Part shown: piece by piece, positions 22,709 to 45,606 of the stretch | Numbering within the stretch: the stretch's first letter is position 1 | How the letters are laid out: each line of letters starts with the position of its first letter | Assembly (NCBI RefSeq): GCF_013410945.1 | Contig: NZ_JACCCH010000001.1 | Coordinates: 992,001-1,056,000 of the forward strand | Reading direction: 5' to 3' | Source of the DNA: Leifsonia sp. AK011 | GTDB taxonomy: Bacteria; Actinomycetota; Actinomycetes; Actinomycetales; Microbacteriaceae | Length of the DNA stretch: 64,000 bases | Position numbers and translations under genes: made by a program | Notes under the pieces: model-generated | The model's database searches: none | What the model was told of the DNA's origin: nothing | Seen by the model: only the letters and a program-made list of their open reading frames with translations

Positions 22709-23725
22709 CTACAGCCCGAGCAGCAGGTCGAGGTTGCGTGGGCTGCGCTCGAGCGTGCCCGCCTCGATCTGCCGGGCGAGGGCGACCGTGTGCGCATTGT
22801 GCGGGGCGGTCTCGCCCACCCGCGCAAGCACCTCCACGACGAGGCCGTTGACCTCGTCGACCTCACCGCGACGGCCCTTCATCCAGTCCTGGAGAACTGT
22901 CGTCCGAGTGTCGGGCAGCGAGTACTTGTCGAGCACCTCGCCGAGGAGGTCCTGGGCGTACTGCTCCGGGCCGGTCACTTGGGTCTCCGTGAGTCCGAAG
23001 ATGGGCACGAGCCGGGAGCCGTCGGCAATGGCGGCACGAGCCGCCTCCTTGCCGCACTCGATCATGAACTCGTGGACACCCGGCATCCGCACCGCCTCGG
23101 CGAGGGGAACATCGAGGATGGCGGAGGGCACGAGCTCACCGGCGTTGGCGACGAGCTTCATCCACTTGGAGGAGCGGATGTCCGCGGAGATCTCGACGGT
23201 TCCCGCGTGTCCCAGTGCCGCCTGCACCTCGAGCTCTCGGCCCCGAGCGGCGTCATCGTAGGCACCCACCGCGAACCACGAGTTGGCCACCTCGGTCTGC
23301 CGGTTGACGATGCCGGGCTCGAACATGTTCGAGGCCATCTCGATGACGGCGCCGATGGTGCGCTCAGGCCCCACGATGGAGGCGACGTCGTCGATGGACA
23401 TGCCGTTCTGCAGTCCGACAACCAGGCCGTCCGGCGCGAGGAGCGGCTTGATGAGTTCGACGGCCCAGCGGGTGTCGTAGGCCTTGACGAGGAGGAACAC
23501 GAGGTCGAAAGGGTCACGCAGCGTCGCGACCTCGGCCAGGTGGAAGGCCCGCACCGGTGTCACCTCGGTGTGGCTCGGGAACCGCACCTCGATGCCGCGC
23601 TCTCGCATGGCCTCGACGTGCGCCGGCCACTGCTCGATGAAGGTCACGTCGAGCCCTGCCCGAGTGAGGTCTGCGCCGATGCCTGCGCCCTGGGCGCCCG
23701 TTCCGACGAATGCGATCCTGGTCAT
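22709..23725 (-). CDS. ketopantoate reductase (PanE/ApbA) family protein, copy 1
   Basis: A 338-residue NAD(P)-dependent reductase. It has an N-terminal Rossmann fold (RIAFVGTGAQGAGIG), the middle motif LLVKAYDTRWA (a Lys typical of PanE), LQNGMS, and the C-terminal helical domain with SSKWMKLVANAGEL, where the catalytic Lys lies. It is longer than biosynthetic PanE (~300 residues) and paralogous to the next gene upstream, only 13 nt away on the same strand. It stands at the edge of a catabolic gene island, so reduction or oxidation of a 2-hydroxy/2-oxo acid intermediate is more likely than pantothenate synthesis. Substrate unknown. Confidence 0.85.
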   Translation of the reverse strand: MTRIAFVGTGAQGAGIGADLTRAGLDVTFIEQWPAHVEAMRERGIEVRFPSHTEVTPVRAFHLAEVATLRDPFDLVFLLVKAYDTRWAVELIKPLLAPDGLVVGLQNGMSIDDVASIVGPERTIGAVIEMASNMFEPGIVNRQTEVANSWFAVGAYDDAARGRELEVQAALGHAGTVEISADIRSSKWMKLVANAGELVPSAILDVPLAEAVRMPGVHEFMIECGKEAARAAIADGSRLVPIFGLTETQVTGPEQYAQDLLGEVLDKYSLPDTRTTVLQDWMKGRRGEVDEVNGLVVEVLARVGETAPHNAHTVALARQIEAGTLERSPRNLDLLLGL

Positions 23726-23738
23726 GTCTCTCCTGGGG

Positions 23739-24758
23739 TCAGCCGAGCGCGCGGCGCAGGTCGGCGATGTTCTCGGGCGAGGGGGTGACCTCGCCCTGTT
23801 CGATGCGGTGGGCGAGGGCGACGACCGCTGCGTTCATCGGGGTCGGGACGCCGAGTCGAGCGCCCTCCGACACGACGGTGCCGTTGATGTCGTCGACCTC
23901 GCTGTGACGCGATTTCGTCCAGTCCTGCAGAACGGTGGTGGTGGCGCCCGGCAGCACGAAGGCGCGATAGAGGGTGTCGAGCAGTGTCTCGACGACCTCA
24001 TCGGGCCGTGAGACGTCGTCGGCGGTGAGCCCGAAGATGGGGAGCACGGGATGCCCGAGCGCCCGCCCCACGTCGAGTGCTTCCTGCCCGGCCGCGAGCA
24101 TGATCTCGCGCATGCCGTCCACGCCGATCGCGTCTGCCATGGGAAGGCCGAGACTCGCGGTGGGCACGAGCACGGTCGCGTTGCTCACGAGCTTCATCCA
24201 CTTGGTCGCCTGGATGTCGTCGACGATGGACACGGTGCCGGAGTGGCGCAGCAGGGTCGCGACATCCTCCTGGCGGTCGACGGGTCCGCCGGGGAGAGCA
24301 CCCACGGCGAACCAGGAGCGATCGGGGCCGGAGTGCCGGGTCACGCGACCAGGGTCGGTCATCGTGGACGAGATCTCGATGACGGTGCCCATGGTGCGGT
24401 CGACACCCACAACATCGGCGATGGCCTGCGTCGACATCCCGTTCTGGACACCGGCCACGATGCCGTCGTCGGCGAGGTAGGGCTCGATGAGCTGGGTGGC
24501 CCACCGCGAGTCGTAGGCCTTCATGAGCAGGAGCACGATGTCGAACTTCTGCTTGAGCGTGGCGACCTCACAGAGGTGCATCGTGCGCGGGCGCACGTGC
24601 AGCTCGCTGTCGGGCATCCGGATGGTGAGTCCGTCGGTGCGCATCGCCTCGACGTGGGCCGGCCACTGCTCGATGAGAGTCACGTCGGCTCCCGCGTGCG
24701 TGAGGTCGGCGCCGATCGAGGCTCCATTGGCCCCGGAACCGAGTACAGCGATTCGCAT
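23739..24758 (-). CDS. ketopantoate reductase (PanE/ApbA) family protein, copy 2
   Basis: A 339-residue paralogue of the downstream gene: Rossmann motif RIAVLGSGANGASIG, LLMKAYDSRWA, VQNGMST and the C-terminal ATKWMKLVSNATVL with the probable catalytic Lys. First gene of a two-gene minus-strand unit that is divergent from the first amidohydrolase gene across a 129-bp gap. Two neighbouring copies could form a heterodimer or act on two successive substrates (inference). In biochemistry the family reduces 2-dehydropantoate with NADPH. Confidence 0.86.
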   Translation of the reverse strand: MRIAVLGSGANGASIGADLTHAGADVTLIEQWPAHVEAMRTDGLTIRMPDSELHVRPRTMHLCEVATLKQKFDIVLLLMKAYDSRWATQLIEPYLADDGIVAGVQNGMSTQAIADVVGVDRTMGTVIEISSTMTDPGRVTRHSGPDRSWFAVGALPGGPVDRQEDVATLLRHSGTVSIVDDIQATKWMKLVSNATVLVPTASLGLPMADAIGVDGMREIMLAAGQEALDVGRALGHPVLPIFGLTADDVSRPDEVVETLLDTLYRAFVLPGATTTVLQDWTKSRHSEVDDINGTVVSEGARLGVPTPMNAAVVALAHRIEQGEVTPSPENIADLRRALG

Positions 24759-24793
24759 CCCAACTCCTTCGTTCTGGATGTACGGAACTACAG

Positions 24794-24819
24794 CCTAGAT
24801 GAACACTTTGTGCTCTAGG
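24794..24819. promoter_or_regulatory. inverted repeat in the divergent control region of the catabolic island
   Basis: CCTAGA (24794-24799) and TCTAGG (24814-24819) are separated by 14 nt, between the reductase pair and the first amidohydrolase gene. CCTAGAT also appears, in reverse, within the control region of the E1 dehydrogenase gene (42130s), so the site may be shared regulation. The amidohydrolase ATG has AGGAG 6-10 nt upstream. Confidence 0.35.
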
Positions 24820-24887
24820 ACTTGTCATTCTGCCATTTCAGCGGCAGAGTGTGAATCGTCACTGAACATTCTCAACGAGGAGAACAG

Positions 24888-26321
24888 ATGAGCGCTATCA
24901 CGCCAACGCCGGAGGACTTCACGCCCGGCAGGCCCGTCGTCTTCCGAAACGGCATCGTCATCACCGTCGACACCCCAGGCGTCCTCCCGAAGGCCGATGT
25001 TCTGGTCGTCGGAGACACGATCGAAGCGGTCGGGCCCGATCTCGCCGTGCCAGAGGGCACACTCGAGGTCGATGCATCCGGCGGCATCCTGATGCCCGGC
25101 ATGATCGACACCCACCGCCACATGTGGCAGACGGCACTGCGCGGCTACGGCGGCGACTGGGCCCTCAGCCAGTACTTCGTCTTCTACTACCTGCAGCACG
25201 GCGAGGTCTTCCGTCCGGAGGACATCTACGCCGGCAACCTCCTGAGCGCCCTCGAGTCGGTCGACACGGGCGTCACGACGACCCTCGACTGGTCGCACGC
25301 GCTTCGAACGCCGGAGTACGCGGATGCCGCGCTCCAGGCCTTCGACGAGATCCCGGGCCGTTTCGTGCTCGGCTACGGCAACTACCTCGGAGCACCGTGG
25401 GAGTGGACCGCGGACCCGGCGTTCCGCGCGTGGATCGAGAAGTTCCCCCGCACCGATCGCGTGGGGCTCCAGATCGCCTTCGACGTGCCCGACTCGGAGG
25501 ACTTCCCCGAGCTCGCGGCCTTCCAGTACGCACGGGACAACGGCATCCGCGTCACGACCCACGCCGGAGTGTGGGGCGCGACGACCGACGTCGGTCTCGA
25601 CAACATGTACAGGGCGGGCGTCATGACCGACCAGCTCACGTACGTGCACTCCGCGAGTCTCAGCGCTGACAGTTATCACAAGATCGCGGCGACCGGCGGG
25701 ACTGTCTCCGTCGCGACCGAGAGCGAGCAGAGCGCTGGCCAGGGCTACCCCTCGACGTGGGAGATCCGCAAGTACGGCATCCCGGCATCCCTCTCGATGG
25801 ACACGAGCGTGTGGTGGAGTGCCGACTACTTCTCGGCGATGCGCGCGACGCTGAGCTCCGACCGGTCCCGCGACCACCTCGAGGCGCACCGCGTGGGGGA
25901 GACGGTCAACGTCAACCGCATGCGTGCGGAGGACGTGATCTGGATGGCGACCATGGGCGGTGCCAAGTCCCTCGGCATGGAGGACAAGATCGGTTCGATC
26001 ACGCCGGGCAAGAAGGCCGATCTCCTCCTGATCAAGAACGACGAGTCACCAGCCATGACGCCCATCCTGAACCCGACCGCCCACGTGGTGTACCAGGCGG
26101 GAACCGCCGACATCCACACCGTCGTGATCGACGGCCGCGTCGTCAAGTACGACGGCAAGCGCATCGGACTCGACCTCGCTCCCGTGCGGGACACGGTCGC
26201 GAAGTCCGTCGAGTACGTGCGCAGCCAGCTCGGCGAACAGGCCTGGGAGGAGGGGATGCATCCGCCCCTCAACCCCGACGAGCCCATCGACAACCCCTAC
26301 CAGTACACCGAGGACGACTGA
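24888..26321 (+). CDS. amidohydrolase superfamily protein (TRZ/ATZ-like), paralogue 1
   Basis: A 477-residue metal-dependent hydrolase. Metal ligands of the subtype III active site are visible: H76-R-H78 in MIDTHRHMW, H225 in TTHAGVWG, H254 in TYVHSASL and D305 in SLSMDTSV. The Glu of the HxxE motif used by deaminases and chlorohydrolases is absent (H225-A-G-V). A small composite beta-domain is formed by the N-terminus (NGIVITVDTPG) and the C-terminus (SITPGKKADLLLI, VVIDGRVVKYDG). It is followed after 6 nt by the Dabb gene. One of three related amidohydrolases within 6 kb, presumably acting on one compound or successive intermediates. Substrate unknown. Confidence 0.87.
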   Translation: MSAITPTPEDFTPGRPVVFRNGIVITVDTPGVLPKADVLVVGDTIEAVGPDLAVPEGTLEVDASGGILMPGMIDTHRHMWQTALRGYGGDWALSQYFVFYYLQHGEVFRPEDIYAGNLLSALESVDTGVTTTLDWSHALRTPEYADAALQAFDEIPGRFVLGYGNYLGAPWEWTADPAFRAWIEKFPRTDRVGLQIAFDVPDSEDFPELAAFQYARDNGIRVTTHAGVWGATTDVGLDNMYRAGVMTDQLTYVHSASLSADSYHKIAATGGTVSVATESEQSAGQGYPSTWEIRKYGIPASLSMDTSVWWSADYFSAMRATLSSDRSRDHLEAHRVGETVNVNRMRAEDVIWMATMGGAKSLGMEDKIGSITPGKKADLLLIKNDESPAMTPILNPTAHVVYQAGTADIHTVVIDGRVVKYDGKRIGLDLAPVRDTVAKSVEYVRSQLGEQAWEEGMHPPLNPDEPIDNPYQYTEDD

Positions 26322-26327
26322 GCACCG

Positions 26328-26639
26328 ATGATCCTGCACCTCGCGACCTTCCGTTGGAAGGATGACGTGACCGCGGCCGATGTGGCCGATCTGACCGAAG
26401 CACTGCGCGACATGGCGGTGGGCATCCCAGAACTGAGTTCCTATGTCTGCGGCGAGAGCCTCGGCCTGCGTCCCGGCGGTGCCGACTTCGGTGTCGCCGC
26501 GATCGTCGCGGACGAGCCCGCCCTCTCGGCGTACCTCGATTCGCCGGCGCACGCTGCGGTGTACGAGCGGCTGCTCGGCCGGATGATCGCCGAGCGCGCG
26601 GCGGTGCAGCTCCCGGTCGAGTCGAGCGCGTGGCTGTGA
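26328..26639 (+). CDS. Dabb (stress-responsive alpha/beta barrel) domain protein
   Basis: A 103-residue single-domain protein that matches the dimeric ferredoxin-like Dabb fold: it opens MILHLATFRWKDDV, has a central VGIPELSSYVCGES and the helix SPAHAAVYERL. Family members are dimers of small barrels, some acting as cyclases or monooxygenases, most uncharacterised. Located between an amidohydrolase and a dehydrogenase with which it overlaps (TGATG), so it is co-translated with them and may handle a reactive intermediate (inference). Confidence 0.8.
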   Translation: MILHLATFRWKDDVTAADVADLTEALRDMAVGIPELSSYVCGESLGLRPGGADFGVAAIVADEPALSAYLDSPAHAAVYERLLGRMIAERAAVQLPVESSAWL

Positions 26640-27691
26640 TGCGCGCGGGTGTCCTCCACGCGGCGGGTGACCTCCGCGTGGAGGAGCGCCCCGTTCCCCA
26701 GCCAGGGCCCGGCGAGGTGCTCGTGCGCGTCGCCGTGTGCGGCGTGTGCGGATCGGATGCGACGGAGTTCGACCGCGGCCCTGTGCTGACTGAGCTCCCC
26801 GTGACGCTCGGGCACGAGTTCGCGGGAGTGGTCGAGGCGATAGGCGAGGGTGTCACCTCCCTCACGCCCGGTGCCGTCGTCGTCTCTGGCGCAGGCATCT
26901 CGTGCGGCGAGTGCAAGCCGTGCCGTCAAGGCCGCACGAACCTCTGCCGCTCCTATCGGACGGCTGGCCTGCAGGTCGACGGCGGACTCGCGGGCTACAC
27001 GATCGTGCCCGAGGGCATCCTGTTGGATGTCACGGCAACAGGTCTTCCCCTCGACACCCTCGGCCTCACCCAGCCCATGGCCATCGCGGTCCACGCGGTG
27101 CGCAGGAGCGGGCTGACTGCCGGACAGGATGCCGTCATCATCGGAGTCGGCGGGATCGGCGCCTTCGTGACCTTCGCGGCCGCGGCTACGGGCGCTCGCG
27201 TACTCGTCGTCGACCTGAGCGGCGAACGGCTCGAACTCGCCAGGCGCCTCGGCGCGACGGCGACCTTCCGGTCGGGGGACGGCACGCTCGCCGAACAGCT
27301 CGAGTCGGTCGGGATGGACGCCGACGTGCTCTTCGAGGTCAGCGGCTCAGCTCCGGGCCTCGCCTCGGTCCTCGATGCTGCCCGACCAGGAGCGACGATC
27401 GTGCCCATCGGCATCCAGAAGGCCGACGTGGCGGTGCCGCTCGGGTCGTGGACGCTCCGCGAGTACACGATCGTCGGCACGGTCGCGCACGTCATGGCCG
27501 AGGACATCCCCGAGGCAGTTCGCCTGCTCGGCACAAGAGACGACTGGACCGACATCGCGTCCGAGGTGCTGCCGCTCGACGAGGTCGTCGAACGTGGCCT
27601 GCGCCCGCTGCTCGGCGGCGGCGCCACCCAGATCAAGACACTGATAGACCCGTGGATCGCCGAGGCGCGCCCCGCGACCCACGAAAGGTAG
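26639..27691 (+). CDS. zinc-dependent medium-chain alcohol/polyol dehydrogenase
   Basis: A 350-residue MDR-superfamily oxidoreductase. ATG at 26639 overlaps the preceding stop codon. Catalytic zinc ligands are in CGVCGSDATEF and GHEFAGVVEAIG (Cys, His, Glu); the structural zinc lobe is CGECKPCRQGRTNLC. The Rossmann fold motif is GVGGIGAFVTFAA, with Asp in VVDLSG favouring NAD. Closest to threonine/sorbitol-dehydrogenase-like members. The next amidohydrolase gene starts 3 nt after its stop, so it belongs to the same operon. Likely oxidises a secondary alcohol made or released by the amidohydrolases. Confidence 0.88.
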   Translation: MRAGVLHAAGDLRVEERPVPQPGPGEVLVRVAVCGVCGSDATEFDRGPVLTELPVTLGHEFAGVVEAIGEGVTSLTPGAVVVSGAGISCGECKPCRQGRTNLCRSYRTAGLQVDGGLAGYTIVPEGILLDVTATGLPLDTLGLTQPMAIAVHAVRRSGLTAGQDAVIIGVGGIGAFVTFAAAATGARVLVVDLSGERLELARRLGATATFRSGDGTLAEQLESVGMDADVLFEVSGSAPGLASVLDAARPGATIVPIGIQKADVAVPLGSWTLREYTIVGTVAHVMAEDIPEAVRLLGTRDDWTDIASEVLPLDEVVERGLRPLLGGGATQIKTLIDPWIAEARPATHER

Positions 27692-27694
27692 AGC

Positions 27695-29131
27695 ATGACC
27701 TCCCGCACCCTCATCACCGACGCCGCGGTCGTCACCATGGACCCGGAGCTCGGAGACTTCGAGCGAGCGAACATCCTCATCGAGGACGGCAGGATTGCCG
27801 CTGTGCAGCCCGGCCTCGAGGCTGATGCCGAGCGCATCGACGGCTCCACGATGATCGCGATGCCAGGCATGGTCGACACCCACCGCCACACCTGGCAGAC
27901 CGCGTTGCGGGGGATGCTCGCCGACGGCAACATCCCCGACTACCTGCGTGGGGTCCGCCTGCAGATGGCTCCGCGCTATCGGGCTGCCGACATGTACGCG
28001 GGCAACTACGTCGGCGCGCTCGACGCCCTCAACTCGGGCGTGACGACGCTCGTCGATTACTGCCACAACATCCTCGATCCGGATGGTGCGCACGCGGCCG
28101 TCTCGGGACTCCGGGATGCCGGCATCCGTGCGCTCTACGGGCATGGACTCACACCCATCACCACGAACACGTGGAGTGAGAGCAAGGGCGGCCAGGAGAC
28201 GAACGCCGATCCGGCGGACCTCGCGACGCGGGCGCGACTGGCACGGGAGATCCGCGACGAGTACTTCCCCACGGACACGGGTCTGCTGCGCTTCGGCATC
28301 GCACCCCAGGAGCTCGCGATCGCACCGGCGGCGACGGTGAACCTCGAGTTCGCACTAGCGCGGGAGCTCGGAGCGCGTATCACCATGCACGCGAACCAGG
28401 TGATGGTGCGGCAGCTCTTCAAGGACGTCGAGGTGCTCGCCGAGAACGGCCTCCTCGGCGACGACCTCCTGCTCGTGCATGGCACGTTCAACACCGCGGA
28501 GGAGTGGGAGCTGCTTCGCGACACCGGCACCATGATCTCGGTGTGCGCGGAGACCGAGATGCAGATGGGCATGGGGTATCCCGCCATCGCCGAGGTCACC
28601 GAGTACACCCGCGGCCCGAGCCTCGGCATCGACTGCGTGAGCGGATGCGGCGGCGACATGATCTCGCACAGCCGATTCGTGCTCCAGGCCACGCGCTACC
28701 GCGCCGATGAACCCGGGTACAAGGAGTGGAAGGCCCCGCAGACCATGGCGTGGACCACCCGCGACGCCCTCCGGTGGCTCACCGTCAACGGCGCGGCAGC
28801 GGCGGGCATGGGCGACGAGATCGGTTCCCTGACGCCGGGCAAGCGGGCGGACGTCGTGCTGCTCGAGATGGGCGGCGTGAGTCAGGCCGGCTGGAACCGA
28901 CACGATCCGGCTGGCGCGATCATCGCGCAGGCCCATGCCGGCTGTGTCGACACGGTGCTCGTGGAGGGCCGGGTCGTCAAGCGCGGAGGCGAGCTCGTGC
29001 ATGTCGACGTGGCATCCGCCCTGCGCACACTGGGGGAGTCCCACGACTACCTGCAGCGCGAGATGGCGGACAACGGGGGCTTCATTCCGCAGCCCCCCAT
29101 CGACATCCCGCTGTACCGCGAGCGCGCCTGA
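27695..29131 (+). CDS. amidohydrolase superfamily protein (TRZ/ATZ-like), paralogue 2
   Basis: A 478-residue protein with GAAAGGTAGAGC before its ATG. Metal ligands: HRH in MVDTHRHTW, His in ARITMHANQVM, His in LLLVHGTFN and Asp in LGIDCVSGCGGDM. The HxxE glutamate is replaced (H-A-N-Q). The last segment LTPGKRADVVLLEMGG and VLVEGRVVKRGG forms the composite beta-domain. It closes the four-gene operon amidohydrolase 1 - Dabb - MDR - amidohydrolase 2. About as related to paralogue 3 as to paralogue 1 by eye, so the three probably descend from ancient duplications and now take different substrates. Confidence 0.87.
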   Translation: MTSRTLITDAAVVTMDPELGDFERANILIEDGRIAAVQPGLEADAERIDGSTMIAMPGMVDTHRHTWQTALRGMLADGNIPDYLRGVRLQMAPRYRAADMYAGNYVGALDALNSGVTTLVDYCHNILDPDGAHAAVSGLRDAGIRALYGHGLTPITTNTWSESKGGQETNADPADLATRARLAREIRDEYFPTDTGLLRFGIAPQELAIAPAATVNLEFALARELGARITMHANQVMVRQLFKDVEVLAENGLLGDDLLLVHGTFNTAEEWELLRDTGTMISVCAETEMQMGMGYPAIAEVTEYTRGPSLGIDCVSGCGGDMISHSRFVLQATRYRADEPGYKEWKAPQTMAWTTRDALRWLTVNGAAAAGMGDEIGSLTPGKRADVVLLEMGGVSQAGWNRHDPAGAIIAQAHAGCVDTVLVEGRVVKRGGELVHVDVASALRTLGESHDYLQREMADNGGFIPQPPIDIPLYRERA

Positions 29132-29156: not shown

Positions 29157-29214
29157 TCACAGTAAACAATCTGGTAACTGTGACTTGACAGTCGTGCAGT
29201 CTCGCTACTAGCTT
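29157..29214 (+). promoter_or_regulatory. promoter and operator-like repeat before amidohydrolase 3
   Basis: TTGACA at 29185-29190, 18-bp spacer, TAGCTT at 29209-29214. Just upstream, TCACAGT (29157-29163) and ACTGTGA (29177-29183) form an inverted repeat that encloses AAACAATCTGG; nearly the same string, AAACAATCTAGG, lies in the E1 dehydrogenase promoter. The arrangement suggests a regulated promoter for the transporter operon. Confidence 0.5.
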
Positions 29215-29288
29215 TGCCTCACACACCCAACGCGACGTGGCGGTCGGTCGACCTACGCGTCGCCCACTTTCTGGAGTCAACGACGACT

Positions 29289-30677
29289 ATGAGCACACGC
29301 ACTCTGCTCCGTGGCGGAACCGTCATCACCTCGGCCAAGACCGGCGAGGTCCTTCCCGCCACCGACATCCTCATCGGCACCGACGGCACCATCGAAGCCA
29401 TCGGCCCCGACCTCTCGGCGGCCGACGCCGAGGTCATCGACGTCACCGGCCGCATCGTCCTGCCGGGCTTCGTCGACACCCACCGCCACACGTGGCAGTC
29501 GGTCGTGCGCAACGTGGCCTCCGACTGGTCGCTCACCGAGTACCTGGCCGGTCTCCACACGGGTCTGTCGAAGTACTTCCGCCCCGAGGACACCTACACG
29601 GGCAACTACCTCGGCGCCCTCGAGGCCCTCGACTCCGGAATCACGACGCTCGTCGACTGGTCGCACAACCTCGCGACCCCCGCCCACGCGGATGCCGCGA
29701 TCCAGGCCCTCAAGGACACCGGGATGCGCGCCGTCTTCGCCCATGGCGGCGGCTCGAAGCAGTGGGGTGCCCCACTGCCCTCGCCGAACAACCACCCAGA
29801 GGATGCACGCCGCATCCGCGACGAGTACTTCAGCGACAACACCGGGCTCGTGACCATGGCGCTCGCCCTCCGCGGTCCGCAGTTCACTCTCCCCGAGGTG
29901 AACCGGCACGACTTCGCCCTCGCCAATGACCTCGACCTGCGCGTGACCGTGCACGTCGGCGACGGCTACTGGGGCAAGTCGGGTCCCATTCGCAAGATGA
30001 ACGACGACGGCCTCCTCTCCGACCGCATCACCTACGTGCACTGCTGCACCCTTGGCGAGGACGAGTTGCAGATGATCGCGGACTCGGGCGGAACGGCATC
30101 CGTCGCCCCCGACGTGGAGATGCAGATGGGTCACGGCTACCCGGCGACCGGGCGACTGCTGAAGCACGGCATTCGTCCCACCTTCTCCATCGACGTGTGC
30201 AGCTCCAACGGTGGCGACATGTTCGGCACCATGCGCACCGCTATCGGCATGCAGCGGGTGCTCGACAACGCGCCGGCAGTTGAGACCGGTGAGACGATCG
30301 AGCGCATCGGGCTGAGCGTCAACGACGTGATCCAGTTCGCGACGATCGACGGAGCGCACGCTGCCGGCCTCGACACCGTGACGGGATCACTCGCGGTGGG
30401 CAAGGCGGCGGACATCGTCGTCCTCGACGACCGTTCACTCGCGCTCACGCCGCTCAACAACCCGATCGGTGCCGTCGTCTACAACTCTCACCCGGGCCTC
30501 GTCCGCGACGTGTTCGTGCAGGGCAACCGCGTGAAGAAGGACGGCGTTCTCGTGGGAGTCGACTTCGACAAGCTCAGGGCGCAGGCGATCGCCTCTCGCG
30601 ACTACATCGTGGGCGAGATGCCCGAGGCGCATCTCGACGGCTCGTGGCACCCGGACCTCGCGACCCAGACGGCATGA
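29289..30677 (+). CDS. amidohydrolase superfamily protein (TRZ/ATZ-like), paralogue 3
   Basis: A 462-residue protein. ATG at 29289 (MSTRTLLRGGTVIT) is preferred over an in-frame ATG at 29214, which would overlap the -10 box. Ligands: HRH in FVDTHRHTW, His in RVTVHVGDGYWG, His in TYVHCCTL and Asp in FSIDVCSSNGGDM; the HxxE Glu is an Asp (H-V-G-D). Composite domain at the C-terminus: SLAVGKAADIVVL. It is the first gene of an operon with a complete ABC importer: the permease ATG overlaps its stop codon. Co-translation with an importer suggests that the imported molecule, or its first product, is the substrate. Confidence 0.87.
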   Translation: MSTRTLLRGGTVITSAKTGEVLPATDILIGTDGTIEAIGPDLSAADAEVIDVTGRIVLPGFVDTHRHTWQSVVRNVASDWSLTEYLAGLHTGLSKYFRPEDTYTGNYLGALEALDSGITTLVDWSHNLATPAHADAAIQALKDTGMRAVFAHGGGSKQWGAPLPSPNNHPEDARRIRDEYFSDNTGLVTMALALRGPQFTLPEVNRHDFALANDLDLRVTVHVGDGYWGKSGPIRKMNDDGLLSDRITYVHCCTLGEDELQMIADSGGTASVAPDVEMQMGHGYPATGRLLKHGIRPTFSIDVCSSNGGDMFGTMRTAIGMQRVLDNAPAVETGETIERIGLSVNDVIQFATIDGAHAAGLDTVTGSLAVGKAADIVVLDDRSLALTPLNNPIGAVVYNSHPGLVRDVFVQGNRVKKDGVLVGVDFDKLRAQAIASRDYIVGEMPEAHLDGSWHPDLATQTA

Positions 30678-32916: not shown

Positions 32917-32933
32917 TGAACGGAGACCCGACG

Positions 32934-38573: not shown

Positions 38574-39281
38574 ATGACTGACCGCACCATCCTCATCGTC
38601 GGCGGCACCTCGGGCATCGGGCTCGAGCTGGCGCGCGACACCATCGCACGCGGCGACCGCGTTGTGCTCACGGGTCGCGACCAGGAGCGTGCCGACGAGG
38701 TGGCACGTTCGCTCGGCGATCGCGCGACAGGCGTCGCCCTCGACATCTCCGAGCCCGAGGCCATCGCCGGTCACCTCGCCGGCGTCGGCCAGGTGCACGG
38801 CATCGTCCTCGCGGCGATTGAGCGCGACGCCAACAGTGTGCGCGAGTACAGCGTCGAGCGTGCGCGGCGCCTCGTGACGTTGAAGCTCGTCGGGTACACC
38901 GAGGTGATCCATACGATGCTCGACAGGCTCGAGGCATCCGGAGATTCCGGCATCGTGCTGTTCGGCGGCCGAGCCAAGGACATGCCGTACCCGGGCTCGA
39001 CGACGGTCTCCACCATCAACGGCGGTGTCGAGGGTCTCACCATGACGCTCGCGCTCGAGCTCGCGCCCATCCGGGTGAACGCGCTGCACCCCGGCATCAT
39101 CGGCGACAGCCCGTTCTGGGCAGGCAAGCCCGAGGGAGTGCTCGACGGCTACAAGTCGCGCACGCCGGGGGGCGAACTCGCGACCATGGCGGACGTCGTG
39201 GATGCCACCCAGTTCCTGCTGCGCAACCGCGGCGTCTCGGGCACAAGCATCGCGGTGGACCGCGGCTGGCGTATCACCTAG
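38574..39281 (+). CDS. SDR-family protein lacking the catalytic Tyr and Lys
   Basis: A 235-residue Rossmann-fold protein. The cofactor loop GGTSGIGLELA and the acidic DIS at residue 57 are normal. The active-site YxxxK is replaced: alignment of NGGVEGLTMTLALEL with the usual KAAVEGLT places Asn149 for Lys and Val145 for Tyr, and the catalytic Ser is in a Gly-Gly region (LFGGRA). The C-terminus keeps RVNALHPGII. It may bind a nucleotide without being a standard reductase, or use another catalytic group. Third gene of the operon after M24 and the hydroxyacid dehydrogenase (36-nt gap, AAGGAGG upstream). Confidence 0.85.
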   Translation: MTDRTILIVGGTSGIGLELARDTIARGDRVVLTGRDQERADEVARSLGDRATGVALDISEPEAIAGHLAGVGQVHGIVLAAIERDANSVREYSVERARRLVTLKLVGYTEVIHTMLDRLEASGDSGIVLFGGRAKDMPYPGSTTVSTINGGVEGLTMTLALELAPIRVNALHPGIIGDSPFWAGKPEGVLDGYKSRTPGGELATMADVVDATQFLLRNRGVSGTSIAVDRGWRIT

Positions 39282-39396: not shown

Positions 39397-40770
39397 CTAT
39401 GCCTTCCAGACGCTCTTCGCGTTGACGAACTCGCGGATGCCCTCTACCGAGAGCTCGCGGCCGATGCCGGAGTCCTTCGTTCCTCCGAAGGGCACCTGCG
39501 GGTACGAGATCGACATGCCGTTGACGAACACGGCACCCACGACGAGTCCCGCGATCGCGCGGCGCTCCTCCTCGGCATCCTCGGTCCACACCGCGGAGCT
39601 CAGCCCGAAGGTCGTGTCGTTGGCGATCTCGAGAGCCTCGTCGAGCGATGCCGCACGGAACACCGTGGCGACCGGCCCAAAGGCCTCCTCCGCGTAGAGC
39701 CGCATGCTCTTCGTGACGCCCGTGACGACGGTCGGCGGGTAGAACCAGCCGGGGCCGTCCGGAATGGCGCCACCCGTCGTCGCGACAGCACCCTGCGCGA
39801 GCGCGTCGGCGACGAGCTCGGCGACCTCGTCGCGACCGGAGCTCGTGGCGAGCGGGCCGATGTCCGTGGCATCCGCCGTCGGGTCGCCCACGACGAGAGT
39901 CGCCATCGCCGCCGTGAACTTCTCGACGAACGCGTCGTAGATGTCCTCGTGAACGATGAACCGCTTGGCGTTGATGCACGCCTGGCCGTTGTTTGAGGTG
40001 CGTGCGGTGACGGCCGTCGCGACCGCCTTCTCGAGGTCGGCGCTCGGCATCACCAGGAACGGGTCGGAACCGCCCAGCTCGAGCACGACGTGCTTGACCT
40101 CGGACCCCGCGATGGATGCCACCGACCGCCCGGCCGGCTCGGATCCCGTGAGTGTCACGGCCACAACTCGGCGATCGCGCAGCACCGGCTCCACCTCGCG
40201 TGCACCGATCAGGAGGGTGTTGAACGAGCCGGCGGGGAACCCACCCCGCTCGAAGATCGTGTCGAGGTAGAGCGCGGCCTGCGGCACGTTCGAGGCGTGC
40301 TTGAGCACCACCGTGTTGCCGGCCATGAGAGCGGGTGCGGCGAAACGGATGACCTGCCATAGCGGGTAGTTCCACGGCATGACCGCGAGTACGACGCCGA
40401 TCGGTTCGTAGACCGTGTACGCGCGCGTGGCACCGACGGCCGGGGCATCCAGCTCGCGCCCGGTGAGGTACTCCTCGGCGTGGTCTGCGTAGAACCGCAG
40501 GTTTGTGGCCGACTTGCGCACCTCGGCGCGGGCCTGGGCGAGCGTCTTGCCCATCTCGAGCGTGAGGAGGGCTGCGGTCTCCTCGACCTCCGCGTCCATG
40601 AGGTCGGCGGCAGCGCGCATCCACTCGGCGCGCTGGGCGAATGTCGTGCCGCGCAGCCCGAGGAACGCCTCGTGCGACTGGGTGATGCGACGGTCGACCT
40701 CGGCGGAGTCGTGTGGTTCGAAGGTCGCAACGGTCTCGCCGGTGGCTGGGTTGATGGTGGCGATGGCCAT
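39397..40770 (-). CDS. NAD(P)-dependent aldehyde dehydrogenase (succinate-semialdehyde dehydrogenase-like)
   Basis: A 457-residue ALDH-superfamily enzyme. Cofactor and catalytic motifs: PWNYPLWQ, TGSEPAG, general base Glu231 in VLELGGSDPF, nucleophile Cys265 in NNGQACINAKR and EEAFGPVA near 370. The length and the QACINAKR sequence fit the short GabD/Sad-type subgroup that oxidises succinate semialdehyde and similar C4-C5 semialdehydes to acids. Last gene of a minus-strand unit led by the VOC protein and the FCD-GntR regulator (55-nt gap). Confidence 0.9.
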   Translation of the reverse strand: MAIATINPATGETVATFEPHDSAEVDRRITQSHEAFLGLRGTTFAQRAEWMRAAADLMDAEVEETAALLTLEMGKTLAQARAEVRKSATNLRFYADHAEEYLTGRELDAPAVGATRAYTVYEPIGVVLAVMPWNYPLWQVIRFAAPALMAGNTVVLKHASNVPQAALYLDTIFERGGFPAGSFNTLLIGAREVEPVLRDRRVVAVTLTGSEPAGRSVASIAGSEVKHVVLELGGSDPFLVMPSADLEKAVATAVTARTSNNGQACINAKRFIVHEDIYDAFVEKFTAAMATLVVGDPTADATDIGPLATSSGRDEVAELVADALAQGAVATTGGAIPDGPGWFYPPTVVTGVTKSMRLYAEEAFGPVATVFRAASLDEALEIANDTTFGLSSAVWTEDAEEERRAIAGLVVGAVFVNGMSISYPQVPFGGTKDSGIGRELSVEGIREFVNAKSVWKA

Positions 40771-40825
40771 GGTGCTCCTCGGTGCGGCTAGTCGGTCGGG
40801 GGTGTCGAGTCAGGGGGATGTCGGT

Positions 40826-41500
40826 TCAGGCGAAGACTTCGGGATGCCGCGCAAGCTCCAGTCGCGTGCGGCGGATGTGACCCGCGAGAATGCGCTCGGC
40901 ATCCTCCAGGTCGTGGCGGCGCAGCGCGGACACGAGCAGATGGTGTTCGTGGTGCACGCTGCGATCGTCGGCACCTCGAACACGCATGAACGCGCGACGG
41001 TAGTGCTGGGTACGGTTCCACAGCTGGAGCACCGTCTCGCCGAGCACGCTTGTCTGGGCGACCGCATAGCTCGCGAGGTGGAACTCGCGGTCGAGCGCGA
41101 TGAACTCCTCGAGATCGTCAGTGTGCTCCATGGCGGCGGCGAGCCGATCCAGATCGTCGACCTGCTCGACCGACAGCAGGGGAACGTTGTAGCGCAGCAG
41201 CAGCGGCTCGATGCGCTCGCGGATCTGGTACATCTCCTCGCACTCGGCGAGGCTCAGGCTCGATACCCACGCACCCGTGTTGGCGACGAGCGTCACGAGC
41301 CCCTCGCCCTCGAGCACACGCAGCGCCTCGCGCACCGGGAGGCGGCTCGCGCCGTGCCGGTCGGCGAGGTCCTCCTGGCGGATGCGCGCACCGGGCTCGT
41401 ACTCGCCCGCGAGGATCGACTGCCGGAGGTCGTCGGCGATGCGTGTTCCGGCGGCGCCGTGCGGTGCGGGGGAGCCGTGCTGTGCAGGGGTGACGGTCAT
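40826..41500 (-). CDS. GntR-family transcriptional regulator, FCD (FadR/PdhR) subgroup
   Basis: A 224-residue repressor-type protein. ATG at 41500 (MTVTPAQHG) is preferred because it leaves a 5-nt gap from the VOC gene stop; an upstream in-frame ATG would overlap that gene. Winged helix: IRQEDLADRHGASRLPVREALRVLEGEGLV. The C-terminal FCD helical domain has the metal or acid-binding Asp/His set (RIEPLLLRY, ALDREFHLASY, EHHLLVSALRRHD). Members bind short inverted repeats and respond to organic acids. Two ATTGGAAACA sites lie just upstream of this operon and of the divergent E1 gene, as expected for its operators. Confidence 0.9.
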   Translation of the reverse strand: MTVTPAQHGSPAPHGAAGTRIADDLRQSILAGEYEPGARIRQEDLADRHGASRLPVREALRVLEGEGLVTLVANTGAWVSSLSLAECEEMYQIRERIEPLLLRYNVPLLSVEQVDDLDRLAAAMEHTDDLEEFIALDREFHLASYAVAQTSVLGETVLQLWNRTQHYRRAFMRVRGADDRSVHHEHHLLVSALRRHDLEDAERILAGHIRRTRLELARHPEVFA

Positions 41501-41505
41501 GCTCA

Positions 41506-42036
41506 CTATTGTGCGGCTCCGCCCGGGTGCCACAGCTTCACGGGAGCCTCGGCCTCATAGGCCTTGCCGCCCGGGTAGCTCACGAGCTCGAACTGCATGC
41601 CCCACGGGCTGAGGAAGTACACCCAGCGCTGCCCGAACGCGGGCCCCGCGCTTGCCGTGGGTTCGCCCATGATCTCGACGCCGTGTGCACGCAGGTGCGC
41701 GAGCGCGGCATCCATGTCGTCGACGTAGATCGCGAAGTGGTGCCCACCGATATCGCTGTTGCGCGGCTGCGGCGCCTGCCCGTCCGCGGACTCGTACTTG
41801 AACGTCTCGATGTTGCTGCCGTTGCCGAGCCGGTAGAAGCGGATCTCGCGGATGACCGTGCGCGGGTGAACGCCGAGGTGGATGCTCATCCACTCGTCAT
41901 CCGACTGCTTCGCGCCGAGGGTGTACACGTGCACGGCCCCGAGTACATCGACCAGGAAACGCTCTGCCTCATCGAGGTCGGGAACGGTGATGCCGACGTG
42001 GTCCATGCCGCGCATACCGGGGATCCCGTTGCTCAT
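41506..42036 (-). CDS. VOC (glyoxalase/bleomycin resistance/dioxygenase) family protein
   Basis: A 176-residue metalloprotein candidate with two beta-alpha-beta-beta-beta modules: RGMDHVGITVPDLDEAERFL (His as a metal ligand) and GGHHFAIYVDDMDAALAHL, with WGMQFELVSY giving a likely Glu ligand. Such proteins are lyases, epimerases or dioxygenases. First gene of the minus-strand unit VOC-GntR-ALDH, divergent from the E1 dehydrogenase gene. Reaction unknown. Confidence 0.86.
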   Translation of the reverse strand: MSNGIPGMRGMDHVGITVPDLDEAERFLVDVLGAVHVYTLGAKQSDDEWMSIHLGVHPRTVIREIRFYRLGNGSNIETFKYESADGQAPQPRNSDIGGHHFAIYVDDMDAALAHLRAHGVEIMGEPTASAGPAFGQRWVYFLSPWGMQFELVSYPGGKAYEAEAPVKLWHPGGAAQ

Positions 42037-42059
42037 GGCGACTCCTTCGTCTTGGCGTT

Positions 42060-42147: not shown

Positions 42148-42154
42148 GCTCGAC

Positions 42155-44344
42155 ATGGCACGACAAAGACGTCTCTCCACCGGCGTGGACTGGATCGAAC
42201 TGACCACCACAGCCTCCGACTGGAAAGCGGCGGACCCCGCTCTCCTCGGCACGATGCTCACCCAGCTGCACCTCATCCGTGCCTTCGAGGAGACCGTGCT
42301 CGAACTCGCGGGTGAGGGACTCGTCCACGGGCCGGCACACTCCAGCATCGGCCAGGAGGGCGGCGCGGTGGGCTCGATCGCCGGACTGCGGTCCACGGAT
42401 GCCGTCAACGGCTCGCACCGCGGACACCACCAGTTCCTCGCCAAAGCCCTCACCCACGTGAGCGGCGGGGTGCTCGACCCGACCGCGCCGGTCGGCGACA
42501 AGGTGCAGGAGGTCCTCCAGCGCAGCCTCGCCGAGATCCTCGGTCTCGCGCAGGGCTATTGCCGCGGTCGCGGTGGATCGATGCACCTCCAGTGGTTCGA
42601 GGCGGGCGCCCTCGGCACCAACGCCATCGTCGGTGGCGGCGCGCCGGCCGCGACCGGCAACGCCTGGGCGCAGAAGCACGCGGGCACCACAGACCTCACC
42701 ATCAACTACTTCGGGGATGGTGCGAGCCAGATCGGTTCCGTGCTCGAGTCGATGAACCTCGCGGCCACGTGGAAACTGCCGGTCTGCTTCTTCATCGAGA
42801 ACAACCTCTACGCGGTCTCCACGAACGCCTCCGAGATCAGCGCCGACGGCCGGTTCTCCGTGCGGGGCCAAGGCTTCAGCATCCCCGCCTGGCGCGTGGA
42901 CGGCATGAACCCGCTCGCCGTGCACCTCGCGATGGAGGCAGCGGCCGAGCGCATGCGCGCGGGCGAGGGCCCCACCATCATCGAGGCCGAGGTCTACCGC
43001 TTCTTCCACCAGAACGGCCCGTACCCGGGCAGCGCGTTCGGCTACCGCACGAAGGAGGAGGAGGCGTCGTGGCGTGCCCGTGACCCCCTCGACCGGCAGG
43101 CGCAGGAGATGATCGCCCTCGGCCTCACGACGCCCGAAGCGGTCGCCGAGCTGCGCGCGAATGCCCAGGCGGCGATGACGGCGGCAGCGGCCGAGCTGCT
43201 CGAGTCCGACCCCGAGGCCGAGGGGAAGCGTCGCATCCGCCCGACCCTCTGGCCCGACCCTGGCTTCGTCAACGTGGGCGTTCGAGGGGATGCCAGCGAG
43301 CTCGCCGGCCTCGGAGCATCCGACCCCCTCGATTACACCGGGGAGTGGCGCGACACCAAGTTCGTCGACGCCGTGGCCGGTGTCATGGATCGGCGGATGG
43401 AACGCGACAACCGCATCGTCGTGCTCGGCGAGGACGTGCACCGTCTCGGCGGCGGCACCAACGGCGCAACCAAGGGTCTTGCGAAGAAGTACGGCGACGA
43501 GCGTGTGCTCGGCACTCCCATCAGCGAGAACGCCTTCACGGGTCTCGCCGAGGGTCTGGCTCTCGACGGCCGGTTCCGCCCGGTCGTCGAGTTCATGTAC
43601 CCGGACTTCATGTGGGTCGCCGCCGACCAGGTCTTCAACCAGATCGGCAAGGCGCGCCACATGTTCGGCGGCGACAATCCGGTGCCGCTCGTGCTGCGTA
43701 CGAAGGTCGCGATGGGTTCTGGCTACGGCTCACAGCACCTCATGGACCCCGCAGGCATCTTCGCGACGAGCCCCGGCTGGCGCATCATCGCCCCGTCTAC
43801 TGCCGCCGACTACGTGGGCCTCATGAACGCGGCGCTCGCGCTCCAGGATCCGGTGCTCGTCATCGAGCACGTCGACCTCTACGGCACCGCCGACCGCGTG
43901 CCCGTCGGTGACCTCGACTACATCCTCCCCCCGGGCCGCGCCGCGGTGCGCCGTCACGGTGAGGATGTCACAGTCATCTCGTACCTCTCGATGGTGCGTC
44001 ACGCGGCCGAGGCCATCGAACAGACCGGAATCGACGCGGAACTCATCGACCTCCGCTGGCTCGATCGTGCATCCATCGATTGGGAGACCATCGGGGCGAG
44101 CATCCGCAAGACCAACGCCGTACTCATCGTCGAACAGGGAGCCCAGGGCACGTCGTACGGTGCGTGGCTCTCCGATGAGATCCAGCGCCGGTTCTTCGAC
44201 TGGCTCGACCAGCCGATCGAGCGCGTGACGGGCGCGGAGGCGAGCCCGAGCATCTCGAAGGTGCTCGAGCGGGCAGCCATTGCCCGCACCGAGGAGGTCG
44301 TCGCCGGCCTCGAGCGCGTCCGTAGCGCGATGGGAGCCCGCTGA
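42155..44344 (+). CDS. 2-oxoacid (branched-chain/acetoin/pyruvate-type) dehydrogenase E1, fused alpha and beta subunits
   Basis: A 729-residue thiamine-diphosphate enzyme that decarboxylates a 2-oxo acid and passes the acyl group to lipoyl-E2. ATG at 42155 is chosen from the leaderless promoter; upstream in-frame codons run into the divergent VOC gene. The alpha part (~1-370) has the ThDP motif GDGASQIGSVLES (residues 187-199) ending in NN at 216-217, and the phosphorylation-loop-like region YRFFHQNGPYPGSAFGYR. The beta part (~405-729) has GEDVHRLGG, TPISENAFTGLAEG and the His in YGSQHLMDPAG. Most organisms encode alpha and beta separately. The E2 gene overlaps its stop; no E3 gene is nearby. 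Confidence 0.9.
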   Translation: MARQRRLSTGVDWIELTTTASDWKAADPALLGTMLTQLHLIRAFEETVLELAGEGLVHGPAHSSIGQEGGAVGSIAGLRSTDAVNGSHRGHHQFLAKALTHVSGGVLDPTAPVGDKVQEVLQRSLAEILGLAQGYCRGRGGSMHLQWFEAGALGTNAIVGGGAPAATGNAWAQKHAGTTDLTINYFGDGASQIGSVLESMNLAATWKLPVCFFIENNLYAVSTNASEISADGRFSVRGQGFSIPAWRVDGMNPLAVHLAMEAAAERMRAGEGPTIIEAEVYRFFHQNGPYPGSAFGYRTKEEEASWRARDPLDRQAQEMIALGLTTPEAVAELRANAQAAMTAAAAELLESDPEAEGKRRIRPTLWPDPGFVNVGVRGDASELAGLGASDPLDYTGEWRDTKFVDAVAGVMDRRMERDNRIVVLGEDVHRLGGGTNGATKGLAKKYGDERVLGTPISENAFTGLAEGLALDGRFRPVVEFMYPDFMWVAADQVFNQIGKARHMFGGDNPVPLVLRTKVAMGSGYGSQHLMDPAGIFATSPGWRIIAPSTAADYVGLMNAALALQDPVLVIEHVDLYGTADRVPVGDLDYILPPGRAAVRRHGEDVTVISYLSMVRHAAEAIEQTGIDAELIDLRWLDRASIDWETIGASIRKTNAVLIVEQGAQGTSYGAWLSDEIQRRFFDWLDQPIERVTGAEASPSISKVLERAAIARTEEVVAGLERVRSAMGAR

Positions 44345-45606
44345 TGGCCACCGTCATCCGGATGCCGGAGGTGCTCGCCGGGGCAAGCGAGGCTGCGATT
44401 CAGTCCTGGCTGGTCTCGCCCGGCCAGAGCCTCGAGGTGGGCCAGCCGCTCGCCGAGATCGAGACCGAGAAGGCGGTCGTCGAGTACGCCGCCGAGACCT
44501 CGGGCACGGTTCTCCAGCTGCTCGCGGAGGCGGGGGTCTCGCTCAACGTCGGCGACCCGATCGCCGTTGTCGGTGCCGAGGGGGAGGCGGTGGAGGATGT
44601 CGCGCCAGCTGCCCCTGCGGCTGAGCCAACTCCCGAGCCCGCAGTAGTCGAAGCTGCGACCCCGGCACCCGCTGCCGCCGTGGCATCCGCCCCGCCCGCG
44701 GCGCCTGCTCCCGCCCCGGCGGCGGCCGTCGCGGACTCGGGCGAGCGCCAGTTCGCCAGCCCGCTGGTCCGGAGGCTCGCGCGCGAGCGCGGCCTCGACC
44801 TCAGCGGTGTGCGCGGCTCGGGGCCAGGCGGGCGGATCGTTCGGCGTGATCTCGACGCACTGCCGGCCGCCGTGGCATCCGCCCCGCCCGCGGCTGCTCC
44901 CGCTCCTGTCCCGTCGGCCGCCCCCGCTGAGGCCACCGAGGTTCCGCACACGCGCATGCGCAAGGCGATCGCGCGGCGGCTCACCGAGAGCAAGTCCACT
45001 GTGCCGCACTTCTACCTCGTGGCCGACTGCCGAGTGGACAAGCTGCTGGCTCTCCGGGCCGAGGCCAATGCGACGTCACCCGTGAAGCTCTCGGTCAACG
45101 ACTTCGTGCTGAAGGCCGCTGCCGCGGCTTTCGTCGACGTCCCCGAAGCGAACGCGACCTGGGGCGAGGAAGCGGTCACGCGCTACTCGACCGTCGACAT
45201 GTCCGTCGCGGTCGCGATCGACGGGGGTCTCGTCACTCCCGTACTGCGCTCGGTGGAGAAGGCCACGCTCACCGAGATCGCGCGCAGCGTCGCCGACCTC
45301 GCCGAGCGTGCCCGCACCGGCCAGCTGCGACAGCACGAACTGGAGGGCGGCAGCTTCTCTGTCTCCAACCTCGGCATGTACGGGGTCACCGAGTTCTCGG
45401 CGATCATCAACCCCCCGCAGTCGGCGATCCTCGCTGTCGGCAGGGCGACCCAGCAGCCCGTCGTCGATGACGGCGCGCTCGCGGTGGGGACGGTCATGAC
45501 GGTCACGCTGTCGGCCGACCACCGGGTCCTGGACGGAGCGCTCGCGGCACAGTGGCTCGCGGCCTTCGTGAAGCACATCGAGAACCCCCTGGGGATGCTC
45601 GTCTGA
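44344..45606 (+). CDS. dihydrolipoamide acyltransferase (E2) of the 2-oxoacid dehydrogenase complex
   Basis: A 420-residue E2. Domains in order: one lipoyl domain (1-~80) with lipoyl-lysine K43 in IETEKAVVEY; an Ala/Pro-rich linker (~85-135); the peripheral subunit-binding domain ASPLVRRLARERGLDLS; a second Ala/Pro linker; and the trimeric catalytic domain (~195-420) with the active-site HRVLDGA. ATG overlaps the E1 stop (TGATG), so the two are co-translated. The specificity is not determined by sequence; the local context suggests the last step of the catabolic route. E3 is presumably supplied by the housekeeping complex. Confidence 0.93.
   Translation: MATVIRMPEVLAGASEAAIQSWLVSPGQSLEVGQPLAEIETEKAVVEYAAETSGTVLQLLAEAGVSLNVGDPIAVVGAEGEAVEDVAPAAPAAEPTPEPAVVEAATPAPAAAVASAPPAAPAPAPAAAVADSGERQFASPLVRRLARERGLDLSGVRGSGPGGRIVRRDLDALPAAVASAPPAAAPAPVPSAAPAEATEVPHTRMRKAIARRLTESKSTVPHFYLVADCRVDKLLALRAEANATSPVKLSVNDFVLKAAAAAFVDVPEANATWGEEAVTRYSTVDMSVAVAIDGGLVTPVLRSVEKATLTEIARSVADLAERARTGQLRQHELEGGSFSVSNLGMYGVTEFSAIINPPQSAILAVGRATQQPVVDDGALAVGTVMTVTLSADHRVLDGALAAQWLAAFVKHIENPLGMLV

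Follow-up and report, generated by a model that had tools for sequence, protein, structure and literature searches.

The M24 fold is known from prolidases, creatinase, the ectoine hydrolase DoeA and the dimethylsulfoniopropionate (DMSP) lyase DddP, and the peptidases among its members hold a dinuclear metal site with an Asp-Asp-His-Glu-Glu ligand set. Other catabolic families also carry diagnostic residues: classical short-chain dehydrogenases/reductases (SDRs) use a Tyr-xxx-Lys catalytic pair, and amidohydrolases bind metal through HxH, two further His and an Asp, with the Glu of an HxxE motif having a role in the deaminase branch. Here we compare with these systems a locus of Leifsonia sp. 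AK011 (Microbacteriaceae; genome size 3.01 Mb), analyzed within a window of 64,000 nucleotides (the whole stretch of DNA under study, contig NZ_JACCCH010000001.1). At window positions 22709–45606, 19 genes, every open reading frame (ORF) uninterrupted, lie between rlmB and a DUF4032 gene. Judged from gene content and relatives, this island is very probably catabolic and assembled from a conserved core and exchangeable modules. By sequence, the core consists of a CYY-type M24 protein and the E1 and E2 of a 2-oxoacid (or acyloin) dehydrogenase, often joined by a succinate-semialdehyde-dehydrogenase (SSADH)-type aldehyde dehydrogenase (ALDH), a HIBADH-type dehydrogenase and VOC and GntR proteins. 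The periphery here comprises a fused CUT2 importer, three PRK08204-type amidohydrolase-fold proteins (AH1–AH3), a Dabb protein, a zinc alcohol dehydrogenase (ADH), an SDR and two PanE-like reductases. The core genes are:

36295..37677, plus strand: M24-fold protein, CYY type (Pfam Peptidase_M24 8.9e-40, residues 205-413)
42155..44344, plus strand: fused E1 alpha/beta, similar to pyruvate dehydrogenase (PDH) and acetoin dehydrogenase (Pfam E1_dh, Transket_pyr, Transketolase_C)
44344..45606, plus strand: E2 acyltransferase (Pfam 2-oxoacid_dh, E3_binding, Biotin_lipoyl; TIGR01349 425.5 bits, cut-off 445)

The M24 domain is present, and its metal site departs from the five-residue dinuclear set. 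Asp281, His358, Glu391 and Glu406/407 are retained, and the second metal Asp, as aligned to prolidases 3q6d, 5cdl and 1pv9, is replaced by Cys292 within a GYRxCYYR motif. This Cys is conserved in 27/27 M24 proteins of same-family regions and in 30/30 loci from a phylum-wide search, the window's own included (27 with the strict motif and 3 with a slight downstream variant), and it is kept, at 33–57% identity, in the aligned proteins of roseobacters, Streptomyces and haloarchaea; a wider count of 106/106 is partly non-independent, some loci having been fetched by a pattern that contains the motif. One relative at 28% identity (L164) has Asp at the Cys292 position. Degradation of peptides or proline derivatives, with the protein acting as the prolidase or aminopeptidase of its database name, would agree with its nearest PDB neighbors, which are prolidases. 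This reading is improbable given the exchange of Asp for Cys in relatives checked down to 33% identity and an importer that is here ribose-type, not peptide-type. The protein also scores far below the model for the DMSP lyase DddP (NF043017, 110 bits versus a cut-off of 600). A second M24 paralog (~55% identity, same Cys motif) often lies close to the first on the opposite strand, for example at L061:16409-17749 (minus strand).

The neighboring E1 and E2 genes together encode the E1 alpha/beta and the lipoyl, E3-binding and acyltransferase domains of a 2-oxoacid dehydrogenase, as recognized by Pfam. The most likely start of the E1 gene is 42155 rather than the first start of its ORF (41882), because homology opens at residues 70–97 in most alignment rows and the rows that open at 3-6 cross stop codons. 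Neither protein reaches a curated substrate-specific NCBIfam cut-off. No E3 gene lies within the island, and the four lpdA relatives of the genome lie elsewhere, the best at 40% identity. The scores bear on a pantoate or branched-chain route, in which PanE- and HIBADH-like enzymes would lead to 2-oxoisovalerate and E1/E2 would convert it to isobutyryl-CoA. A HIBADH, an ALDH and a 2-oxoacid complex are indeed all in the island, and one PanE-like protein (PanE2) exceeds the 2-dehydropantoate reductase subfamily cut-off. However, PDH models are the top NCBIfam matches of E1 and PDH chains rank ahead of branched-chain ones in the PDB, PanE relatives at ≥50% identity occur in just 23-24 of the 101 loci that we compared (two duplicates removed), and no acyl-CoA dehydrogenase is among the 19 genes; we hold little expectation of this route.

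Co-occurrence links the M24 protein to E1. We searched 150 same-family genomes at limits that differ between searches (E ≤ 1e-20 for M24, E ≤ 1e-100 for E1 and E ≤ 1e-60 for AH3) and found M24 in 35 and E1 in 38. With one weak row from each search set aside (G057, G121), 33 genomes have both, 1 has M24 only, 4 have E1 only and 112 have neither (Fisher P ~ 1e-27, uncorrected for relatedness); E1 is thus present in 33/34 M24-bearing genomes and in 4/116 without M24. On a shared contig the two genes are at most 16 kb apart (26/26), and in 7/33 genomes they are on different contigs. Across an even sample of the phylum, M24 matched at E ≤ 1e-60 in 41/396 genomes, this one included. In 20 such loci, drawn from the best-scoring of the 41, E1 alpha lies near M24 in 16, an SSADH at ≥55% identity in 7 and a trio of amidohydrolase, bicupin and SDR in 6. 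Among the 101 loci, E1 (fused or split) is near M24 in 63 and an amidohydrolase in 49, a bicupin plus SDR is found in 30 (27 of those also with an amidohydrolase), and AH2, AH3, importer, M24, HIBADH, GntR, VOC, E1 and E2 occur together in 7. The earlier note on this DNA had put E1/E2 among the late steps of a pathway; by co-occurrence, M24 and E1/E2 are instead the center of the system.

The M24 protein is widely spread. At least 572 relatives occur in named genomes, and the 80 retained from these include Microbacterium, Agromyces, Nocardioides, Streptomyces, Nonomuraea and Acidimicrobiaceae at 72–91% identity. It also matches 107 plasmid records, including Paenarthrobacter, Rhodococcus opacus 1CP, Streptomyces, roseobacters and haloarchaea, and 53 of the 107 are distant Sinorhizobium matches (~26–29% identity among the matches listed). 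All three roseobacter loci that we read have a CUT2 importer, SDRs and the order M24–E1a–E1b–lipoyl/E2–SSADH–E2. The four haloarchaeal loci that we read have E1a/b in two cases and a separate thiamine-pyrophosphate (TPP)-binding protein in three, acetolactate-synthase (ALS)-like in the single case scanned. In Streptomyces, the interval L118:12284-13321 was rejected as E1 beta (no Pfam match, probably the wrong frame), and tblastn in sister loci supports an E1 beta instead. Records titled Planococcus, Bifidobacterium breve and Acidobacteria (L098, L124, L136, L105) carry Microbacteriaceae- or actinobacteria-like loci and are probably mislabeled or misbinned.

Several observations weigh against an M24–E1/E2 core. 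E1/E2 can exist alone, as in the four E1-positive family genomes without M24. Conversely, E1 is missing from 4/20 phylum-wide loci and was not found within the stretch in 38/101 loci, in both sets perhaps partly through short contigs, and none is annotated in the stretch read of Halorussus, Paenarthrobacter R1 or R. opacus 1CP. The AlphaFold model of the M24 protein is poor (pLDDT 57, from 17 alignment rows). We give an even chance to the full explanation, in which the core and exchangeable modules are joined to the order of chemistry sketched below.

In Paenarthrobacter R1, lpdA is the third gene after M24. The run RidA-M24-HIBADH-SDR-lpdA on the plasmid of this strain (L149:12211-19479) lies near sulR, whose annotation reads flavin reductase and predicted sulfonamide-resistance gene. 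Together with Microbacterium CSI-V, which we take to be a sulfonamide degrader, this led us to consider sulfonamide degradation, a reading we rejected as a general function given the at least 572 M24 relatives in many genera.

The position of the island is defined by its two flanking genes:

21527..22537, plus strand: rlmB, left flank (name read from the translation; match in 14/14 genomes searched)
45655..46938, minus strand: DUF4032 gene, right flank (Pfam DUF4032 2.1e-74; match in 10/14 genomes searched)

We surveyed these flanks in 14 same-family genomes, 10 of which have both. The genes are separated by ~20 bp in G001 and ~70 bp in G002, by 1.9 kb in the same-genus genomes G082 and G145 and 2.3 kb in G009, by 28 kb in G036 and G032, and by 23 kb in the window; G010 has them far apart, and in G044 and G066 they fall on separate contigs. 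Because they stand only ~20–70 bp apart in two relatives, we place the island at a shared site, and as a genomic island it is an insertion between flanks that are contiguous in relatives. The rlmB–DUF4032 interval is a shared Microbacteriaceae site of varying content, being near-empty or holding ~2 kb or ~15–28 kb of catabolic genes. All 19 genes recur between the same flanks in G036, a member of another genus, and the gap in G032 holds the core. Salinibacterium (L069) and Microcella (L079) have related genes between the flanks; the core of G145 and G009 is close by, yet outside them. No integrase is among the 19 genes and no tRNA lies within the window, and G+C content is not aberrant, at 0.63–0.70 all along it. 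Sigma-70-type promoters are not in excess over 22500–42200 (1 found versus 1.0 expected), and inverted repeats in three divergent intergenic regions have no evident common sequence.

Chance adjacency of unrelated operons would be in keeping with the several transcription units, both strands and two regulators of the locus. The recurrence of all 19 genes with the same flanks in another genus, the partial sets in many more genomes and the strong M24-E1 linkage make it highly improbable. Together with the seven of 101 loci that hold the large set, the G036 locus rules out a synteny unique to one genome, and the conserved co-occurrence proposed in the earlier note is borne out. That note had also counted about 16 genes, where we count 19. 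Its gene families are present, Pfam and NCBIfam scans backing the names of 18 genes and the translation that of the XRE-cupin regulator, and its description of a dedicated catabolic island agrees with a gene set that is conserved across genera and hence not due to chance.

The left half of the island runs PanE2–PanE1 (minus strand), AH1–Dabb–ZnADH–AH2–AH3–permease–substrate-binding protein (SBP)–ATPase/permease fusion (plus) and XRE-cupin (minus); the right half runs M24–HIBADH–SDR (plus), VOC–GntR–ALDH (minus) and E1–E2 (plus). The genes beside M24 are:

35429..36136, minus strand: XRE-cupin regulator (family assigned from the translation; 46/101 loci have relatives at ≥45% identity)
37674..38537, plus strand: HIBADH-family beta-hydroxyacid dehydrogenase (Pfam NAD_binding_2 1.7e-24, NAD_binding_11 6.3e-14)
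38574..39281, plus strand: SDR, PRK07041-like (Pfam adh_short 3.6e-23; NF005449 144 bits, cut-off 257)
39397..40770, minus strand: SSADH-type ALDH (Pfam Aldedh 1.5e-140; NF006915 742 bits, cut-off 730)
40826..41533, minus strand: FCD-GntR regulator (Pfam FCD 4.3e-22, GntR 2.1e-15)
41506..42036, minus strand: VOC protein (Pfam Glyoxalase_4 4.8e-14), first in the VOC-GntR-ALDH run and divergent from E1

The SDR lacks the classical catalytic pair, having Val145 and Asn149 versus Tyr and Lys in four other SDRs; Val and Asn are found in 32/32 relatives, and there was no PDB match at 1e-18. In Streptomyces and Acidimicrobiaceae a bicupin (for example L118:14685-15566) recurs in a trio with an amidohydrolase and a Tyr/Lys-less SDR. 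Its nearest relatives are quercetinase, gentisate dioxygenase and glyoxylate-induced protein, at weak E-values that fix no reaction.

Upstream of the regulator lie the importer and the putative upper enzymes:

22709..23725, minus strand: PanE/ApbA-like reductase 1, PanE1 (Pfam ApbA 6.8e-27, ApbA_C 3.7e-14)
23739..24758, minus strand: PanE/ApbA-like reductase 2, PanE2 (Pfam ApbA 6.5e-27; TIGR00745 163.8 bits, above the cut-off)
24888..26321, plus strand: AH1, PRK08204-like amidohydrolase-superfamily protein (Pfam Amidohydro_1 2.7e-29; NF006056 368 bits, below the cut-off of 391)
26328..26639, plus strand: Dabb-domain protein (Pfam Dabb 4.1e-11)
26630..27691, plus strand: zinc-binding ADH, polyol/inosose-dehydrogenase-like (Pfam ADH_N, ADH_zinc_N)
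27695..29131, plus strand: AH2, amidohydrolase-superfamily protein (Pfam Amidohydro_1; NF006056 443 bits, above the cut-off)
29214..30677, plus strand: AH3, amidohydrolase-superfamily protein (Pfam Amidohydro_1; NF006056 531 bits, above the cut-off)
30644..31732, plus strand: CUT2 (ribose-type) permease (Pfam BPD_transp_2 5.7e-29)
31729..32916, plus strand: CUT2 SBP (Pfam Peripla_BP_4 2.2e-31)
32916..35417, plus strand: two-ATPase plus permease fusion, 833 aa (two ABC_tran stretches and BPD_transp_2)

PanE1 falls under the 2-dehydropantoate reductase cut-off that PanE2 passes (TIGR00745, 133.3 versus 141.35 bits). The importer has the parts of a CUT2 system, namely an RbsA-type double ATPase, RbsC-type permeases and a Peripla_BP_4 SBP, with scores under the equivalog cut-offs shown. 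Relatives of the single-chain ATPase(x2)-permease fusion at ≥60% identity occur in 9/101 loci, with remoter ones elsewhere.

The makeup of the upper genes varies. In relatives the importer is replaced by other CUT2 importers (~40% identity) or, in G117 (by scanning) and G046 (by shared clusters), by an importer of the LIV type, accompanied by an MhpA-type hydroxylase and a homolog of enoyl-CoA hydratase. The presence of zinc ADHs, PRISE-like reductases, LLM monooxygenases and RidA likewise differs among relatives. Because importers and upper genes vary in this way, the periphery resembles a set of adaptors, each suited to another starting compound. Besides its catabolic genes, the P. ureafaciens SD-1 plasmid holds a zeta-toxin-family gene as well as a cyclase/Pycsar-effector pair (L155:13607-15964).

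Part of this variable periphery points toward polyols. In a cyclitol or cyclohexane-dione route resembling inositol catabolism, a polyol would be oxidized to a ketone, the M24 protein would act as dehydratase or ring-opener, a TPP enzyme (E1/E2, or the ALS-like protein in haloarchaea) would cleave a vicinal dione and the ALDH would finish. The CUT2 importer has an SBP whose PDB relatives are for the most part sugar-binding proteins, the zinc ADH has IolM as its top NCBIfam model and ketose reductase and sorbitol dehydrogenase among its PDB relatives, and up to three zinc ADHs stand directly behind M24 in other loci. For a roseobacter SDR the top models are acetoin reductase and iditol dehydrogenase, both below cut-off, and the TPP enzyme changes while M24 and SSADH stay. 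Against this, the IolM score is far under its cut-off (179 versus 450 bits), no relatives of IolE, IolD or IolB were recognized, though no search was aimed at them, and some relatives have an aromatic MhpA-type hydroxylase or an LLM monooxygenase instead. We rate this specific route as rather unlikely, if a real contender.

The amidohydrolases bear on a further alternative, that of the earlier note, in which a nitrogen heterocycle or amide (purine, hydantoin, triazine or lactam) would be imported, opened by amidohydrolase C-N hydrolysis and the M24 protein, and then oxidized. After NF006056, AH1–AH3 match TRZ/ATZ and deaminase models. RidA, typical of enamine or imine intermediates, adjoins M24 in Paenarthrobacter R1 and is present with an amidase in the P. 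ureafaciens plasmid cluster. Amidohydrolase and M24 are also positively associated, and to this extent the expected co-occurrence holds: across the 150 genomes, 12 have AH3 and M24, 22 M24 only, 8 AH3 only and 108 neither (Fisher P = 1e-4, again uncorrected for relatedness). It does not hold throughout, since 22/34 M24-bearing genomes lack an AH3 match at E ≤ 1e-60, a table that undercounts amidohydrolases, as G009, one of the 22, has an AH1 relative by direct comparison. The residues argue against the route. Although the metal ligands (HxH, His, His, Asp) are invariant in 7/7 aligned proteins, the deaminase Glu of HxxE is replaced by Val in AH1 (Val in 20/20 relatives), by Gln in AH2 (Gln in 9/9) and by Asp in AH3, versus Glu in 4dyk, 4gbd and 3lnp, with Asp or Met in 29/29 AH3 relatives (Met in 19/29). 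AH3 itself probably starts near 29289, at about residue 25, because homology opens at residues 20-31 in most rows. A Cupriavidus amidohydrolase relative adjoins an intradiol dioxygenase and lies near a maleylacetate reductase, and none of the 19 island genes (0/19) belongs to a nitrogen-assimilation family. The nitrogen-containing substrate thus finds no support, because it rests on family names that the residues fail to back. The same applies to C-N hydrolysis, the amidohydrolases lacking the HxxE Glu, M24 one canonical metal Asp and the SDR its Tyr and Lys, all conserved changes. We consider the nitrogen route unlikely.

Taken together, we favor the M24 and thiamine-enzyme core, and can sketch an order of chemistry that is tentative at best. 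The importer would take up a small polar compound, probably polyol- or ring-derived, which AH1–AH3 and the dehydrogenases would shape into a keto compound. Bond cleavage by the M24 protein, whether hydrolytic or through elimination, may then yield a vicinal dione, an acyloin or a 2-oxo acid, which E1/E2 would cleave to an acyl-CoA. The ALDH could oxidize a released or derived semialdehyde, HIBADH and PanE might deal with beta-hydroxy or alpha-keto side products, and the XRE-cupin and FCD-GntR proteins are probably sensors of pathway intermediates. That an M24 bond-cleaving step feeds E1/E2 cleavage is proposed with moderate-to-low confidence. For the substrate, a polyol or ring-derived compound is our leading guess because of the sugar-type importer and the polyol-type dehydrogenases, and a nitrogen-containing compound is possible. 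Somewhat short of even is the chance that CYY M24 proteins form a new enzyme class, neither peptidase nor DMSP lyase. At a Cys-containing metal site, such enzymes would break a C-C, C-O or C-N bond, and a dedicated thiamine enzyme, E1/E2 or ALS-like, would receive the resulting 2-oxo or acyloin product. The class would then be the hub of an unrecognized catabolic pathway common to Actinomycetota, roseobacters and haloarchaea and fed with different substrates by interchangeable importers and upper modules, one of them being the amidohydrolase module of this island.

The hub probably handles something common, being present in about one-tenth of sampled Actinomycetota (41/396), in some marine and halophilic microbes, and in 1.1–2 Mb genomes of Microbacteriaceae, not all of which are complete. 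Annotations such as "Xaa-Pro peptidase", "amidohydrolase" and "SDR" imply chemistry at odds with the active sites, and naming the substrate would aid the annotation of hundreds of loci (at least 572 relatives) and could define a new M24 reaction. The earlier note knew of no characterized pathway with exactly this enzyme set, and open PMC papers, the scope of our search to the exclusion of subscription papers and preprints, gave no match. In PMC9477822 and PMC8305020, the M24 term appears in the reference list (one and two places, respectively) and not in the main text.

Set beside described systems, the island overlaps with each in part. The rut uracil pathway shares RidA, a flavin reductase or LLM protein and an alpha/beta hydrolase with some relatives, but none of these is among the 19 island genes. 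AH2 and AH3 pass the PRK08204/NF006056 cut-off and AH1 fails it, and all three retain HxH, two more His and Asp; unlike the TRZ/ATZ, deaminase-rich branch to which that model belongs, they lack the deaminase Glu, and the model itself is labeled merely "hypothetical protein". Inositol catabolism (Iol) follows a similar logic of polyol import, oxidation, TPP-dependent ring cleavage and semialdehyde dehydrogenase. There, however, the M24 protein has no counterpart, and IolE, IolD and IolB, not specifically sought, were not recognized in the island. Pyruvate and acetoin dehydrogenase complexes have the same E1 alpha/beta and E2 lipoyl, E3-binding and catalytic domains, whereas the island E1 is fused, scores under the listed PDH cut-offs and lies with E2 in an operon of its own beside M24, ALDH and VOC genes, with no E3 gene. 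Finally, the island M24 protein shares its domain with the known M24 family and weakly matches DddP and DoeA, and differs from that family in its Cys for the second metal Asp and in its linkage to a 2-oxoacid dehydrogenase.

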